Of a stretch of 64,000 nucleotides of DNA, positions 3,904 to 62,167 are shown piece by piece; position 1 is the stretch's first letter, and each line of letters begins with the position of its first letter. A program made the translations under genes and the position numbers. This DNA comes from Acidobacteriota bacterium (GTDB lineage: Bacteria; Acidobacteriota; Thermoanaerobaculia; Gp7-AA8). The notes under the pieces were generated by a model. The model saw nothing but the letters and a program-made list of their open reading frames with translations, ran no database searches and was not told the DNA's origin. The stretch lies in assembly GCA_003223645.1 (NCBI GenBank), contig QHVT01000009.1, forward strand, positions 1 through 64,000. Direction: 5' to 3'.

Positions 3904-3985
3904 ATGAAGGCAGAAGGCAGAAGGCAGAAGGCAGAACTGAGAACGTTCTGACTTCTGCTTTCTGCCTTCTGCCTTCTGCCTTCAT
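3904..3985. repeat. Heptad palindrome (AAGGCAG)n between sdhA and sdhB
   Basis: Four head-to-tail AAGGCAG units face several CTGCCTT units across a short centre (GAGAACGTTCTGAC), so the whole 82 bp is nearly one self-complementary arm pair from ATGAAGGCAG to CTGCCTTCAT. On the minus strand the sdhA stop codon is the TGA of TGAAGGCAG, so the element begins exactly where sdhA ends. Confidence 0.85.
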
Positions 3986-5916: not shown

Positions 5917-6029
5917 ATGAAGGCAGAAGGCAGAAGGCAGAAAGCAGAAGGCAGAAGTGAGAACCGATTCGCGCGCTTGCGATCAGCGCTTCTTACTTCT
6001 GCCTTCTGCCTTCTGCCTTCTGCCTTCAT
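5917..6029. repeat. Heptad palindrome (AAGGCAG)n between sdhC and sdhA
   Basis: Same unit and design as the element at 3904-3985, but with a longer centre (about 45 bp). Plus-strand arm: ATGAAGGCAGAAGGCAG and further copies; facing arm: repeated CTGCCTT ending in CTTCAT. The sdhC stop TGA is again the first three bases of a TGAAGGCAG unit on the minus strand. Confidence 0.85.
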
Positions 6030-6872: not shown

Positions 6873-6947
6873 GGCATGACACACGTCATCTCCACGCGCT
6901 GACGTTCTGCAATAGGCGCGGCGCTGCGGCGAACGGCTAGAATCTCG

Positions 6948-7033
6948 GTGCTGGGTGCTGAGTGCTGGGTGCTGGGTGCTGGGTATCGATCTCAGCACCC
7001 AGCACCCAGCACCAAGCACTTCGCACTCAGCAC
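6948..7033. repeat. Heptad palindrome (GTGCTGG/GTGCTGA)n
   Basis: GTGCTGGGTGCTGAGTGCTGG copies are followed, after TATCGAT, by CAGCACCCAGCACC copies, giving a long hairpin that ends nine bases before the start codon of the kinase gene at 7042. A closely similar element lies at 62095-62167. Its position could sequester the ribosome-binding region of the kinase transcript (inference). Confidence 0.8.
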
Positions 7034-20357: not shown

Positions 20358-20443
20358 ACGCAGAACGCAGAGCGCAGAATTTAGAACGAAGAGATTTCTA
20401 AATTCTTCGTTCTGCGTTCTGCGTTCTGCGTTCCTGGCCGCGT
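20355..20443. repeat. Heptad palindrome (AACGCAG)n after actin-like gene
   Basis: The stop codon TGA is the start of TGAACGCAGAACGCAG. Direct AACGCAG / AGCGCAG units run to about 20380, and after ATTTAGAACGAAGAGATTTCTAAAT the facing CTGCGTT units follow to 20433, with a further CTGCGTT copy at about 20443-20450. The pattern is the same as the AAGGCAG elements of the sdh operon with a different 7-mer. Confidence 0.85.
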
Positions 20444-20482
20444 TCTGCGTTCCTGGCTTTACCGGGCCCGACCATCCTCCAG

Positions 20483-22511: not shown

Positions 22512-22563
22512 CCGCGGTTACTCGCGGATGCCTCCCGGTGTCCAACACACCAGGAGGCACATC

Positions 22564-22962
22564 ATGCGCGCGACTCGATCGAGCACGCTCAACGCGGAGA
22601 TCAATGTCACTCCACTCGTCGACGTCTGTCTCGTCCTCTTGATCATCTTCATGCTCTTCCTCCCGCAAATGGTGCCGGGCGTCAAAGTGCAACTGCCGGA
22701 GACGACGAAGAGCGGCGACATCGACAAGCGCGTCTTCCCGATTACGGTGAAGAGCGACGGCACGGTCTACCTCGATAAGCTGATCGTGCGTCAGGAAGAA
22801 GTGCCGTCCGCGCTGCGGCAGCTGCACGCGACCGCGGCGTCGCGTCCGATCGCGGTGCGCGGCGACAAGCATGCGATGTACGGCGCAATCCTCGACGTCC
22901 TCGCCGCCAGCCGCGACGCGGGATGGCAGGACGTCGCGCTGGTGCACGTCGAGCGGCGATAG
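22564..22962 (+). CDS. ExbD/TolR-family biopolymer transport protein
   Basis: Protein of 132 residues with a single N-terminal membrane helix (TPLVDVCLVLLIIFMLFLP) and the catalytic Asp of the family (PLVDV), which carries proton flow in ExbB-ExbD or TolQ-TolR motors. A periplasmic domain follows (RPIAVRGDKHAMYGAILDVL). The ATG at 22564 is set by AGGAGG six bases upstream; an in-frame GTG-type start earlier lacks such a site. No ExbB/TolQ gene is adjacent, so the stator partner must be encoded elsewhere. It is followed by the repeat array. Confidence 0.9.
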   Translation: MRATRSSTLNAEINVTPLVDVCLVLLIIFMLFLPQMVPGVKVQLPETTKSGDIDKRVFPITVKSDGTVYLDKLIVRQEEVPSALRQLHATAASRPIAVRGDKHAMYGAILDVLAASRDAGWQDVALVHVERR

Positions 22963-22966
22963 TGGT

Positions 22967-22990
22967 GAGGGCAGCGGCACCCACAAATGC
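22967..22990. repeat. Half element of the CCGCTGAGGGCAGCGGCACCCAC family
   Basis: GGTGAGGGCAGCGGCACCCACAAA directly after the ExbD stop matches the right arm of the 8185-8280 element. The left arm is absent here, so it looks like a decayed or partial copy. Confidence 0.6.
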
Positions 22991-23026
22991 ATGCGGCGCC
23001 GCAGCGGCGCACGTGCAGACCGGGGG

Positions 23027-23344
23027 TGCGGCAGTGCAGCGCGACGACGCTGCACTGCAGGCCGGCGGTGGAGCAGTGCAGCGCGGCGGCGCTGCAATGC
23101 GGCGCGGGCGGTGCGCACGTGCAGCGCGGCGGCGCTGCAATGCAGCGCGGGCGGTGCGCAGTGCAGCGCGGCGGCGCTGCAATGCAGCGCGGGCGGTGCG
23201 CAGTGCAGCGCGACGGCGCTGCAATGCAGCGCGAGCGGTGCGCAGTGCAGCGCGACGGCGCTGCAATGCAGCGCGGGCGGTGCGCAGTGCAGCGCGGCGG
23301 CGCTGCAATGCAGCGCGGGCGGTGCGCACGTGCAGCGCGGCAGG
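23027..23344. repeat. Tandem array of 42-bp units with nested TGCAGCGC palindromes
   Basis: Five 42-43-bp units begin at 23111, 23154, 23196, 23238 and 23280, with a partial sixth at 23322. Degenerate copies extend back to about 23027. Each unit carries TGCAGCGC in alternating orientation: TGCAGCGC-N4-GCGCTGCA-A-TGCAGCGC, then GGGCGGTGCGCA. Units differ only by a few G/A changes. It is open in several frames because of composition, but no frame has a ribosome site or a recognisable protein. It occupies the 575-bp spacer between exbD-like and glutamate dehydrogenase genes, whose 3' ends converge. I see nothing definable in 23345-23537. Confidence 0.9.
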
Positions 23345-23537
23345 GGCGCGATGAAGCGAAAACGCGGCGTAAGTCCACGGACCGAGCATTCGTGCGTGTC
23401 ACCGCCAGGAGCTTGCGCGGCAGAAACGACGTTCTCAGGCGCGTTGCGCCGCTCGAAGTCGCAGGTCGTGACATGGCGACAAGCATGCCGCGAGGCGGAG
23501 CAATCCACGCAGCCGCCCGTGGCGGCTAGTGGACGTG

Positions 23538-26500
23538 TCAGCTGTCGACCAACGTCCTCAATTGCCGCGACGCCACGGTGAGCATCGCCAGGTCGACGGC
23601 GTTCGCGGCGCGGAACTCGTTCATCGTCTGATCGACGCGCTCGACGACGCGCGGGCGTGCGGAGAGCCACGCATCGACGGGATTCGCGGCGCCGTTCGTT
23701 TCGGTGATGACGCGCGACGCGAGGGTGCTCTGGTAGTTGAAGAGATCGTCGACGAGGGTCGCGATCGCGCTCTTCTGCCACGGCGTTTCGGCGACGATCT
23801 TCGACGTCGCGTTGCGGAGGCTGTCGAGCGAGAGGCGCGCGCCGACACCGAAGTAGACGCGCGCGACCTCTTCGACTCCATGCGACGCGTCGCGGCGCGC
23901 GATACGCACGATGTCCATCGCCGACGTCATCACGTCGAGGCTGGCCACGCGCTGCGCGAGGTCGTCGGGGATGCCGTCGACGGTGAGCTCGGACTCGCGC
24001 ACGCGCACGCTGGAGAGCATCGACGCGGGCAGAATCGCGCCGAGGTTTTGTTGGATCGCGGCGATGCGCGGGCGGAACTCGGCGATCAATGCGGCGACGT
24101 CGAGCTTCTCGTAAGAACTGCGCAGCAGCCAGGTGATCGCGCGCTCGAGGAGGCCGGCCACGGCGATGAGCATGTCGATCTGCGCGCTGGCCGGCAGTTT
24201 GTTGTCGAGCGACTCGATCTCCGACCAGATCGTGCGGAGGTCGAACGAGTCGCGCATGATGATGAACGCGCGCGCGATGTCGGCCGGCGGCTTGCCGGTC
24301 TCGTCGCAGCTCTGCCACGCGAAGTTCGGCCGCACGCGGTTGACGATCGCGTTGGTGACGATCGTGGCGATGATCTCGCGGCGCAGTTTGTGCCGCTCGA
24401 TCGCGGCGCGAAAGCGCGCGCGGAGGTCGTCGGGGAAATACAAAACCAAATCGTCGACGAGTTGCGGGTCGTCGGGGAGATCGGACTTCAGCAGGTCTTC
24501 GTACAGCACGAGCTTCGCGTACGCGAGGAGCACCGCGATCTCGGGCCGCGTGAGACCGGTTCCCTGCGCGTGGCGGTCGACGATCGTCTCGTCGTCGGGC
24601 AAGCCTTCGGTGAGGCGATCGAGCTTGCCGGCCTTCTCGAGTCCGCGCATGAAGCGCGCCTGCGCGTCGAGCTGCGGCTCTCCGAGGGTGTGCGTGACCG
24701 AGATCGCCTGCGTCTGTTCGTAGTTGTCGCGCAGCACGAGGCGGCCGACGTCGTCCGTCATCTCGGCGATGATGCGGTTGCGCTCGTCGATGCCGGACAG
24801 TTCCTTGCGCGCGATCGCGTCGTACAGCGTGATCTTGATGTTGACTTCGTGGTCGGAGGTATCGACGCCGGCGGAGTTGTCGATCGCGTCGGTGTTGATC
24901 TTGCCGCCGCCGAGCGCGTACTCGATGCGGCCGCGCTGCGTGAAGCCGAGGTTCGCGCCTTCGCCGACGACGCGCACGCGGATCTCGTTGCCGTTCACGC
25001 GCATCGCATCGTTCGCGCGATCACGCGCCGCGGCCTGGTCTTCCCAGCTCGCCTTGACATATGTTCCGATGCCGCCGAGCCAGAGCAGGTCCGCGTTCGC
25101 GCGGAGAATCGCGCGCATCAATTCCGCCGGCGCGACGACGCGCTTCGGCAGCTCGAACAGCGCCTGCACTTCGTCCGACAGCGCGATCGTCTTCGCGCTG
25201 CGCTCGTACACCGCGCCGCCTTTCGACAGCAGCGACGTGTCGTAGCCGTTCCAGTTCAGGCGGTTGTCGAACATCCGCTTGCGCTCGGCGAAGCTCGTCG
25301 ACGGATTCGGATCGGGGTCCACGATGATGTGCGAGTGATTGAACGCGGCGAACAGTTTGATGTGATGCGAGAGCAGCATCGCGTTGCCGAACACGTCGCC
25401 GGACATGTCGCCGACGCCGACGACCGTGAAGTCCTCGGTTTGCGTATCGAGGCCGAGCTCGCGGAAGTGGCGCTTCACCGCCTCCCATCCGCCGCGCGCG
25501 GTGATGCCCATGCCTTTGTGGTCGTAGCCCGCGGATCCGCCTGACGCGAACGCGTCGCCGAGCCAGAAGTTGTATTCGCCGGAGATCGCGTTCGCGATGT
25601 CGGAGAACGTCGCCGTGCCTTTGTCGGCGGCGACGACGAGATACGGATCATCGGCATCGCGGCGCACGACGTCCTTCGGCAGGATCAGCTGATCGCCGTA
25701 CAAGTTGTCGGTGATGTCGAGCATGCCGCGCAGCAGCGTCTTGTACGACTCGACGCCTTCCTGCTGGAACGTCGCACGATCGGCGGACGGATTCTTCACG
25801 ACGAATCCGCCTTTCGATCCGACCGGCACGATGACGACGTTCTTCACCATCTGCGCTTTCATCAGTCCGAGAATCTCCGTGCGGAAGTCCTCGCGGCGGT
25901 CGGACCAGCGGATCCCGCCGCGAGCGACTTTGCCGCCGCGCAGATGGATGCCTTCCATCCACGGCGCGTACACGAAGATCTCGAACATCGGACGCGGCAG
26001 CGGCAGCTCGGGCACGAGCGCGGAGTCGAGCTTGAACGAGAGATAGAGTTTGCGATCGCCGTTTGAGTCGCGCTGGAAGTAGTTCGTACGCAGCGTGGCC
26101 TCGATGAGGCTCACGTACAGACGGAGGATGCGATCCTCGTCCGGAGCCGTGACGCGCTCGAGCGCGTCTTCGATCTGTGACCGGATGCCGAGCGACGCGC
26201 CTTTGCGTCCGAGCCCGACCTCGCCCATCGACGGATCGAAGTAGTTTTTGAAGAGCACGATGATGTTGCGCGTGATCGCCGGATGTTTCGCCAGCGTCTG
26301 CTGGATGTACGCCTCGCTGAGCGTGACGCCGACCTGCCGCAGGTACTTCGCGTACGCGCGCATGACGACGACTTCGTGCCACTCCAGCTCCGCGCCGAGG
26401 ACGAGGCGGTTGAAGCCATCGTTCTCGGCCTGCCGCGTCCAGACGCGGATGAACGCGTCCTGAAATTTTTCTTTCAGCGGCGCGAGGTCGTCCTGCATCC

Positions 26501-28358
26501 CTTCCGCGTCGAGGCTGAAGTCGCGGATGCGGACCGGCTCCTTCGCGCCGTAGGGCTGCACTTCGTACGGAACTTCGCGAAGCACCTTGAGCCCCATGTT
26601 CTCGAGGCGCGGCATGATCTCGGAGAGCGGGACCGGCGGACCGGCGTGGATGATCTTGCAGTGGAACTGCCGCTCTTCGCCGCGATGTCGATAGAGATCG
26701 ACGACCAGCTCGCCGGTCGCGAGCACGTGCTCGACGTTGCCGATGTCGAACAGCGCGGCGTGCGCGGAAAAGCGTTCCGCATATGCGATCGGGAACGCTT
26801 TCTTGTAGCGATGGTGCAGGTCGATGCCGACTTCCTCGCCCATCTCCTGCACGAGCGCATCGAGGAGTTTGTCTCCCCACGTGCGCGCGGCATCGTCGAT
26901 GAACGCTTCGACGCGTCGCGCGTCGACGTCAGGCACGCTGCCCGGCGTCGTACGCACGATGAACAGTCCGCGCGCCAGCGGCGAGTTCGTGATGTGGTCG
27001 TAGACCTCGGCGTCCCGGCCGGCAAACGCCTCCTCGAGAATCGCCTTCGCGCGGTCTTTGAATTCGGGCGTGTAGCGGTCGCGCGGAACGAAGACGTAGC
27101 AGGCGACGAAGCGCTCGAAGAGATCCTTGCGCGTGAAAAGCGCGACGCGCTGGCGCTCCTGCAAGAGGAGGATGCCGCGCGCGATCTCGAACAGCTCGTT
27201 GTCGGTAATCTGGAAAAACTCGTCGCGCGGAAAAGTCTCGAGGATGTCGACCAGCGCCTTGCCGTTGTGCGAATGCGGATCGAGTCCCGCGCGATCGAGG
27301 ACGCGCTTCGCCTTGAGGCGCAGCATCGGAATGTCGCGGACGCTGCGCTGATAGGCGGCGGAGGTGAAGAGTCCGAGGAAGCGATCCTCGCCGATCAGAT
27401 TGCCGGCGGAGTCGTAACGTTTGATGCCGATGCGATCGAGGCGCACCGGACGATGAATGAGGCTGCGGCGATTCGCCTTCGTGATGATGACGAGATCCTT
27501 GCGGCGCGCGTACTCGCTGTCGACCGCGCTGAGCGGACGCTGGTATCGCGCGGCGTCGCGAAGGTCGCGCGAGATGCCGAGTCCCGTCTCCGTCTCCGGC
27601 CGCAGGTAATCCGCGCCGCCGCGTGTCTCGAACGCATAGCGGCGATGGCCGAGAAAGATGAAGTGGCCCTGGTCGAGCCAGCGCAGGAACGCCTTCGCCT
27701 CCTCCACTTCTTCGGCGGGCATCGGCAGCGCCGCGGTCTCGAGCTCGGCGACGTCGTCAGTAAGTCGCTGGCGCATCGTGCGCCAGTCGGTGACCGCGAG
27801 TCGCACTTCGCGCAGGATGACTTCGAGCGACGCGCACATCGACTCGAGCTCGCCCGGCTCGGTCTCCTGATCGACTTCGACGTGCATGTACGACTCGACC
27901 ATCGTGCTCGTGCCGGCGCTGCCGGTATCGACGACTTCGAGCCGGTTGCCCGACGCGTCGCGCCGCGCGTGGATGATCGGATGCAGGAGCAGATGGATCT
28001 TGCGATCGCGCCTGTTGAACTCGGCGGTGACGGAGTCGACCAGGAACGGCATGTCGTCGTTCACGATCTCGACCACCGTGTGCTCGGTCTCGAATCCGTT
28101 CTCCTCGACCGTCGGATTGAAGAGGCGGATCTTCGGAAGGCCGGGCGTGCGCTGCACGCCGAACTCCCACAGCGAAAGCGCGCCGCCGAGGAGCGTGTCG
28201 AAGCTCGTGTAAATCACGTCGTCGGGCGCGACGTGGGCGAAATAGCGGCGGACGAAGTGCTCGGCGCTGTCAGCCTGAGCGGCCGGAACGCGCTTTTTCG
28301 CCTCCGCCGCGAGGCGGTCGACCAGGTCGACCTGCCGTTGTTCTGCGGTGATCGTCAT
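23538..28358 (-). CDS. gdhB: NAD-dependent glutamate dehydrogenase, large (180-kDa) type
   Basis: Protein of 1606 residues, the usual size for this family. It oxidises glutamate to 2-oxoglutarate and ammonium with NAD+ in the cytoplasm. The long N-terminal half has the ACT-like and helical regions (FLVDSVTAEFNRRDRKIHLL, FLRWLDQGHFIFLGHRRY). The catalytic domain starts near residue 830: VPVGSKGGFVVK (substrate Lys region), ADKGTATFSDIAN, DHKGMGITARG, VVGVGDMSGDVFGNA (nucleotide fold), HIIVDPDPN. A helical C-terminal domain follows. It is monocistronic, and no nearby regulator is apparent. The gene symbol follows Pseudomonas usage. Confidence 0.95.
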   Translation of the reverse strand: MTITAEQRQVDLVDRLAAEAKKRVPAAQADSAEHFVRRYFAHVAPDDVIYTSFDTLLGGALSLWEFGVQRTPGLPKIRLFNPTVEENGFETEHTVVEIVNDDMPFLVDSVTAEFNRRDRKIHLLLHPIIHARRDASGNRLEVVDTGSAGTSTMVESYMHVEVDQETEPGELESMCASLEVILREVRLAVTDWRTMRQRLTDDVAELETAALPMPAEEVEEAKAFLRWLDQGHFIFLGHRRYAFETRGGADYLRPETETGLGISRDLRDAARYQRPLSAVDSEYARRKDLVIITKANRRSLIHRPVRLDRIGIKRYDSAGNLIGEDRFLGLFTSAAYQRSVRDIPMLRLKAKRVLDRAGLDPHSHNGKALVDILETFPRDEFFQITDNELFEIARGILLLQERQRVALFTRKDLFERFVACYVFVPRDRYTPEFKDRAKAILEEAFAGRDAEVYDHITNSPLARGLFIVRTTPGSVPDVDARRVEAFIDDAARTWGDKLLDALVQEMGEEVGIDLHHRYKKAFPIAYAERFSAHAALFDIGNVEHVLATGELVVDLYRHRGEERQFHCKIIHAGPPVPLSEIMPRLENMGLKVLREVPYEVQPYGAKEPVRIRDFSLDAEGMQDDLAPLKEKFQDAFIRVWTRQAENDGFNRLVLGAELEWHEVVVMRAYAKYLRQVGVTLSEAYIQQTLAKHPAITRNIIVLFKNYFDPSMGEVGLGRKGASLGIRSQIEDALERVTAPDEDRILRLYVSLIEATLRTNYFQRDSNGDRKLYLSFKLDSALVPELPLPRPMFEIFVYAPWMEGIHLRGGKVARGGIRWSDRREDFRTEILGLMKAQMVKNVVIVPVGSKGGFVVKNPSADRATFQQEGVESYKTLLRGMLDITDNLYGDQLILPKDVVRRDADDPYLVVAADKGTATFSDIANAISGEYNFWLGDAFASGGSAGYDHKGMGITARGGWEAVKRHFRELGLDTQTEDFTVVGVGDMSGDVFGNAMLLSHHIKLFAAFNHSHIIVDPDPNPSTSFAERKRMFDNRLNWNGYDTSLLSKGGAVYERSAKTIALSDEVQALFELPKRVVAPAELMRAILRANADLLWLGGIGTYVKASWEDQAAARDRANDAMRVNGNEIRVRVVGEGANLGFTQRGRIEYALGGGKINTDAIDNSAGVDTSDHEVNIKITLYDAIARKELSGIDERNRIIAEMTDDVGRLVLRDNYEQTQAISVTHTLGEPQLDAQARFMRGLEKAGKLDRLTEGLPDDETIVDRHAQGTGLTRPEIAVLLAYAKLVLYEDLLKSDLPDDPQLVDDLVLYFPDDLRARFRAAIERHKLRREIIATIVTNAIVNRVRPNFAWQSCDETGKPPADIARAFIIMRDSFDLRTIWSEIESLDNKLPASAQIDMLIAVAGLLERAITWLLRSSYEKLDVAALIAEFRPRIAAIQQNLGAILPASMLSSVRVRESELTVDGIPDDLAQRVASLDVMTSAMDIVRIARRDASHGVEEVARVYFGVGARLSLDSLRNATSKIVAETPWQKSAIATLVDDLFNYQSTLASRVITETNGAANPVDAWLSARPRVVERVDQTMNEFRAANAVDLAMLTVASRQLRTLVDS

Positions 28359-51319: not shown

Positions 51320-51460
51320 TGTGGGGCAGGCGTTCCAGCCTGCCGCCCGGAGGGCAGGTTGGAAAACCTGCCCTACACCACAAGCTACGGCAGGTTGGAA
51401 AACCTGCCCCACACCACAAGTTACGGCAGGTTGGAAAACCTGCCCTACACCGCGAGTTAC
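51320..51460. repeat. GTGTGGGGCAGG palindrome plus three 36-bp tandem units
   Basis: A GGCAGGCGTTCCAGCCTGCC hairpin is followed by three 36-bp units starting at 51353, 51389 and 51425. Each has the palindrome GGCAGGTTGGAAAACCTGCC and a 16-base tail CYACACCRCRAGYTAC. The units differ at only a few positions, and the intervening tails are not unique, so this is not a CRISPR array. Confidence 0.9.
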
Positions 51461-51573
51461 GACGCAACGCGCGCTCCGCGATCGCGCGACTTCACGCTCG
51501 CCTCATCGATCTTTCCGAGCTTCACGAGCCGGCTCGTGATCGCGCCCGACGTGCGGCCGTGCTGCAGCGGCCT
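51457..51573 (-). pseudogene. Orphan C-terminal protein fragment, unidentified
   Basis: A stop-to-stop frame of 38 residues without a start codon ends RTSGAITSRLVKLGKIDEAS and SVKSRDRGARVAS. It has strong GC third positions (about 27 of 33 codons) and coding-like composition. The upstream part is missing and a GC-rich repeat (51612-51726) begins shortly before. It is probably the tail of a deleted gene. I do not recognise the family. Confidence 0.35.
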
Positions 51574-62094: not shown

Positions 62095-62167
62095 GGCTGA
62101 GTGCTGGGTGCTGAGTGCTGGGTGCTGGGAGCTCGGCTTCTAACTCAGCACCCAGCACCCAGCACTG
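62095..62167. repeat. Heptad palindrome (GTGCTGG/GTGCTGA)n
   Basis: Plus-strand direct units GCTGAGTGCTGGGTGCTGAG and so on are faced by CAGCACCCAGCACCCAGCAC. Same units as 6948-7033. On the minus strand it starts six bases after the TAA of the RHH-TPR gene and ends four bases before the VWA start. Confidence 0.85.

Follow-up and report, generated by a model that had tools for sequence, protein, structure and literature searches.

A satellite array of phased, palindromic 21-bp repeats between convergent genes of an Acidobacteriota bacterium: candidate sites for a dimeric DNA-binding protein

Here, we describe a tandem array found in the window (the whole 64,000-nucleotide stretch of DNA that was analyzed, which lies on contig C5 of a draft genome of 6.38 Mb in 51 contigs). 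It belongs to the class of non-coding bacterial satellites defined by a constant repeat size (20 to 23 nt) and a variable sequence. It carries a symmetric core in helical phase, and this core is conserved in diverged arrays. Many other arrays of about 21 bp, built on other palindromes, occur elsewhere in the genome, and relatives lack the array at the matching site. The best mechanism that we can offer, and one that we favor only tentatively, is that the array offers a dimeric DNA-binding protein a row of helically phased sites.

The array and its surroundings

The features of the array and of its immediate surroundings are as follows (window coordinates).

23009 to 23341, no strand: whole array of 21-bp period, with 16 phased GCA-N(1-2)-TGC cores (TRF and core positions)
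23009 to 23119, no strand: degenerate part of the array, with the core register kept in steps of 22, 21, 21, 21, 21, and 22 bp to the core at 23137 (core positions)
23120 to 23329, no strand: five regular 42-bp units of two 21-mers apiece (half-site starts at 23120, 23162, 23204, 23246, and 23288)
22528 to 22962, plus strand: left neighbor, gene for an ExbD/TolR-like protein (Pfam PF02472, E = 8.8e-23)
23538 to 28358, minus strand: right neighbor, convergent gene for an NAD-glutamate dehydrogenase (NAD-GDH; Pfam PF05088, E = 1.2e-247)
23404 to 23529, no strand: dispersed repeat of ca. 125 bp, adjoining the array but separate from it (43 scored genome matches)

TRF placed the array at 23013/23014 to 23341, with a period of 21 or 42 bp and 7.8 copies of 42 bp at 92% matches. 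GCA-N(1-2)-TGC cores occur at 23009, 23031, 23052, and onward to 23326 (n = 16), each step being 21 or 22 bp and the register unbroken; shuffles of 22985 to 23364 gave a mean of 0.16 such cores. A preliminary description had recognized five 42-bp units with degenerate copies, and both TRF and the core positions bear this out, the degenerate copies preceding the units. It also located the array correctly, but the register begins slightly earlier than reported (23009 rather than 23027) and continues straight through the part called degenerate. The half-site TGCAGCGC is present 13 times and GCGCTGCA 6 times within the array, versus 4 and 7 times, respectively, in the remainder of the window. The spacings of 4 and 1 bp described for these half-sites are real, but a third gap, of 13 bp, also recurs, and since the second 21-mer of each 42-bp unit ends in GGTGCGCA rather than GCGCTGCA, there are three half-sites per unit and not four. 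Moreover, the 4-bp-gap arrangement is perfect only in alternate 21-mers. The deeper invariant of the array is the core GCA-N(1-2)-TGC, not TGCAGCGC.

The array does lie between two convergent genes, as had been stated, and no promoter-like site was found in 22900 to 23600, in agreement with the earlier view that a promoter role is unlikely. The best-matching relatives of the NAD-GDH (57 to 72% identity) come from MAGs titled Thermoanaerobaculia or Acidobacteria, a match that assigns the genome to class Thermoanaerobaculia of the Acidobacteriota. A hexamer gene caller placed no gene over 23013 to 23341; open frames do cross the array, and a coding repeat or repeat peptide, which would call for a period that is a multiple of 3 with the frame kept, is excluded by the two 22-bp steps within the array and by the 43-bp period of its relatives (see below), both of which break the frame.

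Other repeats are present in the window. The adjoining repeat at 23404 to 23529, with at least 43 genome matches (self and partial matches counted; 40 of 104 first-look candidates scored) at identities of up to 98%, has the look of a short non-autonomous mobile element. At 51353 to 51461, an intergenic site holds a 36-bp unit in three copies, with the palindrome GGCAGGTTGGAAAACCTGCC. Heptamer tandem arrays (GAAGGCA / TTCTGCC and others) are found at 3906 to 3983, 5919 to 6027, 6947 to 6984, 20403 to 20457, and 62096 to 62133; some of them form inverted pairs, and heptamer arrays are also frequent across the sampled genome.

Conservation of the core in related arrays

The preliminary description had raised the prospect of further arrays, and a DNA search of the genome found related ones at five other places (C10, C41, C3, C25, and C32), and C20 gave a short match. 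The period is 21 bp in the C10 array and 43 bp in the other four; the best stretches of these arrays are 72 to 77% identical to the window array. When the 21-bp units of seven arrays were aligned (six from this genome, including that of the window, and L196 from genome G017, of another genus), the six core columns carried a mean of 1.58 to 1.91 bits versus 0.72 to 1.32 for the other columns, and the core had the top information among the 21 rotations in six of the seven arrays and the second highest in the seventh; because these arrays share descent, the columns are not fully independent and the arrays are best regarded as diverged relatives, not as independent inventions. Across the related arrays, the core is kept while the linkers differ, and the conserved arrangement is the 1-bp-gap form, GCA-N-TGC. 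The proposal that the array is a set of dimeric sites for a putative binding protein is thereby supported in part: a symmetric core at a spacing of two helical turns is conserved between diverged arrays whose linkers change.

A core-only pattern gave 20 matches per strand in the own genome and 4 in G005, and it revealed no arrays in the other 16 of the 18 family genomes. In two G005 arrays, few cores stay in register (L187, 0 successive pairs; L188, 3 successive pairs), indicating that only part of the G005 array keeps the GCA-N(1-2)-TGC core. Arrays of the CATCGATG type in G000, G005, and G014 were found with a pattern that itself forces the core, and therefore their core identity is no evidence. 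A backward-read control of the palindromic patterns matched 9+9 and 2+4 times in G014, a member of the same family. As a palindrome read backwards is another palindrome, these control matches are possibly arrays of other families, perhaps those of CGT-N-ACG and CAGT-N3-ACTG palindromes.

A genome rich in arrays of about 21 bp

For a census, stretches of up to 20 kb were drawn from many contigs, either along a grid or at fixed offsets (1,099,262 bp without the window), and were searched with one detector; arrays of at least 180 bp with a period of 17 to 65 bp were counted. Twenty-four long arrays were found, 20 of them having a period close to 21 bp or to one of its multiples; periods cluster at 20 to 22, 41 to 44, and 63 bp irrespective of sequence. 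Without L046, which lies in a called gene, and L057, which consists of heptamers, 18 arrays remain, or ca. 16 per Mb and ca. 104 per genome, including one (L041) within a called ORF that may be an artifact of the open repeat. In 731,080 bp surrounding GDH genes, mostly from unrelated bacteria, the detector found no array with a period of ca. 21 bp or a multiple and only two arrays in all, of 48 and 36 bp; this comparison is a rough one, the stretches being gene dense and GDH chosen. In unselected stretches, it detected five arrays from 123 kb of G005 and two from 400 kb of G001; G011 (120 kb) and G028 (80 kb) had none.

The arrays fall into about a dozen unit families with different palindromes, among them AAGTCA-N3-TGACTT, CATCGATG, CACTCG-N3-CGAGTG, and TCATTTC..GAAATGA, and higher-order units of 42, 43, 63, and 129 bp occur. 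One AT-richer 21-bp family (TTGCAAATGAAAACAGGCCGG) was seen in seven places (L023 10392 to 10798, L025 2896 to 3413 and 8447 to 8633, L026 2827 to 3281, L207 648 to 1184, L218 9804 to 10334, and L226 14085 to 14620), several of which share flanks of ca. 67 to 320 bp. Inverted ends were not significant for this family (score of 19 versus 21). A link to a presumed IS481-like transposase relic, noticed by eye alone beside some of these arrays, is not claimed here; Pfam gave no match for the L023 piece.

This diversity argues against a single sequence-specific protein, since different arrays carry unrelated palindromes and one protein cannot bind them all. One speculative and, we think, unlikely extension is a length-coded chromosome scaffold, in which about a hundred intergenic arrays would place palindromes two helical turns apart, the spacing being fixed by a shared polymerizing protein, or by a paralogue family of different specificities, and the sequence of the palindrome being free.

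Another explanation would be a partition or replication-control site, whether sopC-like or iteron-like. The 43-bp relatives, with their inverted repeats, do formally resemble sopC of the F plasmid. However, many arrays of many sequences, related and unrelated, are scattered over long contigs, and the five neighboring genes that were scanned with Pfam (kinase, ExbD, GDH, M28 peptidase, and SNF2 helicase) include no par or rep gene and, in particular, no adjacent parA/parB. The partition function suggested in the preliminary description is thus disfavored, and we regard this explanation as highly improbable.

Dyad symmetry and RNA folding

Dyad symmetry of the 21-bp unit was assessed at the unit level against column shuffles in 18 hand-picked arrays, one per family (12 from this genome and 6 from relatives). 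Seven of the 12 own families gave P < 0.05 (combined P = 3e-10, Fisher); the other five had no significant dyad, nor did G001_L186 and G005_L195 among the six relatives' arrays. The same test on consensus units was weaker, with 4 of 32 arrays at P ≤ 0.05.

Symmetric units could also act as RNA, and a transcribed hairpin array, with stem-loops (8-bp stem and 4-nt loop) that would end transcription from both sides or serve as a small RNA or sponge, has several points in its favor. The array RNA folds better than dinucleotide shuffles (z = -7.1 for the plus strand and -4.6 for the minus strand; z-scores from single-base shuffles were not relied on), the array sits between convergent genes, and the two subunits of the 43-bp relatives (TGCAGCGC..GCGCTGCA and TGCGTC..GACGCA) differ in sequence yet can each pair. 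Furthermore, the 52-nt repeats of B. coagulans are described as transcribed (PMC8625621). Tandem repeats, however, trivially fold better than their own shuffles; every other 21-mer of the window array is missing the second arm, and the array as a whole folds best into one long structure instead of a row of hairpins. The intrinsic terminator pattern of a hairpin followed by a T-tract does not occur inside the array, and one weak site lies at 23363 to 23379. Gene orientation around 26 arrays (9 convergent, 12 codirectional, and 5 divergent, versus 76, 229, and 91 of 396 intergenic gaps) shows only a weak convergent bias (Fisher P = 0.07). Rfam gave no match in the window at the gathering score. 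Taken together, we consider a hairpin RNA quite unlikely.

Turnover and carriers

In four relatives (G002, G003, G011, and G012), the array is absent between the same ExbD and GDH genes. (A further stretch, L070, matched G003 in its alignment values and probably comes from the same genome; in G001, a member of the same genus, the kinase and ExbD were both not found in the 1.5 kb examined beyond the GDH gene.) We therefore reject the idea that the array is a conserved part of the ExbD-GDH site, and it follows that it performs no conserved service to these two genes.

A related 43-bp array lies inside an element with imperfect inverted ends of ca. 50 bp. Copies of the element are as follows.

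L022, 9290 to 9886, no strand: element copy
L025, 8940 to 9400, no strand: element copy
L023, 9512 to 9979, no strand: element copy without the left end
L228, 250 to 540, no strand: element copy

The inverted ends score 47 (L022) and 33 (L025) versus a maximum of 21 in 300 shuffles of the L025 pair. The inner flank is found four times in the genome, with unit numbers of 8.5, 8.4, 5.9, and ca. 3. At least one family has thus spread on a carrier, its copy number drifting; these differences weakly favor the free copy-number variation that the preliminary description had itself set against a binding role. No such transposon carrier applies to the window array, which has no inverted ends (local score of the flanks, 19, versus a shuffle maximum of 23).

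The main rival explanation is that the array is a neutral or selfish minisatellite. Its units would be built and homogenized by slippage and by unequal recombination, some families would travel on transposon-like carriers, and the 21-bp period would come from the copying mechanism rather than from a function. The absence of the array from the four relatives, the higher-order units (which indicate block duplication), and the inverted-end element in its four places with their differing unit numbers all favor such an origin. Neutral slippage alone, however, gives no account of a single period shared by about a dozen unrelated sequences, and the enrichment of dyad symmetry and the elevated conservation of the core columns over the linkers in seven arrays also speak against it. 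In short, a neutral minisatellite accounts for the turnover and block duplications but not for the conserved core, and we regard it as possible, if doubtful.

Proposed mechanism

We return to phased sites for a dimeric protein. Symmetric sites two helical turns apart, with conserved cores and free linkers, are the trace that would be expected of a dimeric protein lying on one face of the DNA. The array may be viewed as a row of palindromic GCA-N-TGC sites that would share one helix face because they repeat every two turns. A putative dimeric DNA-binding protein would occupy each site and touch its neighbors, and the resulting local nucleoprotein filament could stiffen, bend, or anchor the chromosome. 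We infer each of these three elements, namely, protein binding, protein polymerization, and an architectural role rather than control of the neighboring genes. Counted against this binding-site reading are the five families without a significant dyad, the shared ancestry of the arrays, the varying unit number among copies of the 43-bp element, and the good RNA folding. Should a binding protein be found, it would represent a new architectural system in bacterial chromosomes.

Comparison with known systems

The BIME/REP arrays of enterobacteria are, like the arrays described here, intergenic, palindromic, tandem, and dispersed; unlike them, they have one REP consensus and a longer unit, whereas the present genome has many unrelated 21-bp units. 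The sopC centromere of the F plasmid consists of 43-bp tandem repeats with inverted repeats and is therefore like our 43-bp relatives in form, but it is one site, served by a dedicated ParB-type protein, in contrast to the many arrays found here and the lack of par genes among the scanned neighbors. Heptamer STRR repeats are abundant intergenic tandem repeats with a 7-bp unit; heptamer arrays are also present in the window, but periods of 43, 41, 22, and 20 bp are not multiples of 7.

The closest likeness is to the constant-size repeats. Subirana and Messeguer describe bacterial tandem repeats of a constant size (20 to 23 or 52 nt) and variable sequence, each genome having several families and the repeats a short conserved signal; signals and their reverse often occur within the same 52-nt repeat (PMC8161180). 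Those authors propose protein polymerization on DNA or a small RNA and note the two helical turns, leaving the function unexplained (PMC8161180). An earlier survey by the same authors reported that few bacteria exceed 4 satellites per Mb and that some have heptamer-derived families (PMC6749651). For the 4.36 Mb of B. weihaiensis, 29 arrays of 21 nt are listed (PMC8161180), versus ca. 16 per Mb here by different methods. The window array is non-coding, has steps of 21 or 22 bp throughout, shares its genome with about a dozen families that are equal in length and differ in sequence, and has a short conserved signal, GCA-N(1-2)-TGC, in its own family (other families have other cores). It thus has the tested features of this class and belongs to it. 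In the literature that we found, no function is assigned to constant-size repeats of 20 to 23 nt, and shared symmetric cores offer a concrete, testable motif for each family; literature searches that combined tandem repeats with Acidobacteria or Thermoanaerobaculia gave no results. A text search of PMC8161180 met no word beginning with "palindrom". As compared with the published class, the present case differs in being from an Acidobacteriota family, in its palindromic signal with a gap of 1 to 2, in its 42-, 43-, and 63-bp higher-order units, and in having one related family within an inverted-end element. As far as these papers and our searches show, two things are new relative to published descriptions of the class: cores that are palindromic and phased, and the inverted-end element.
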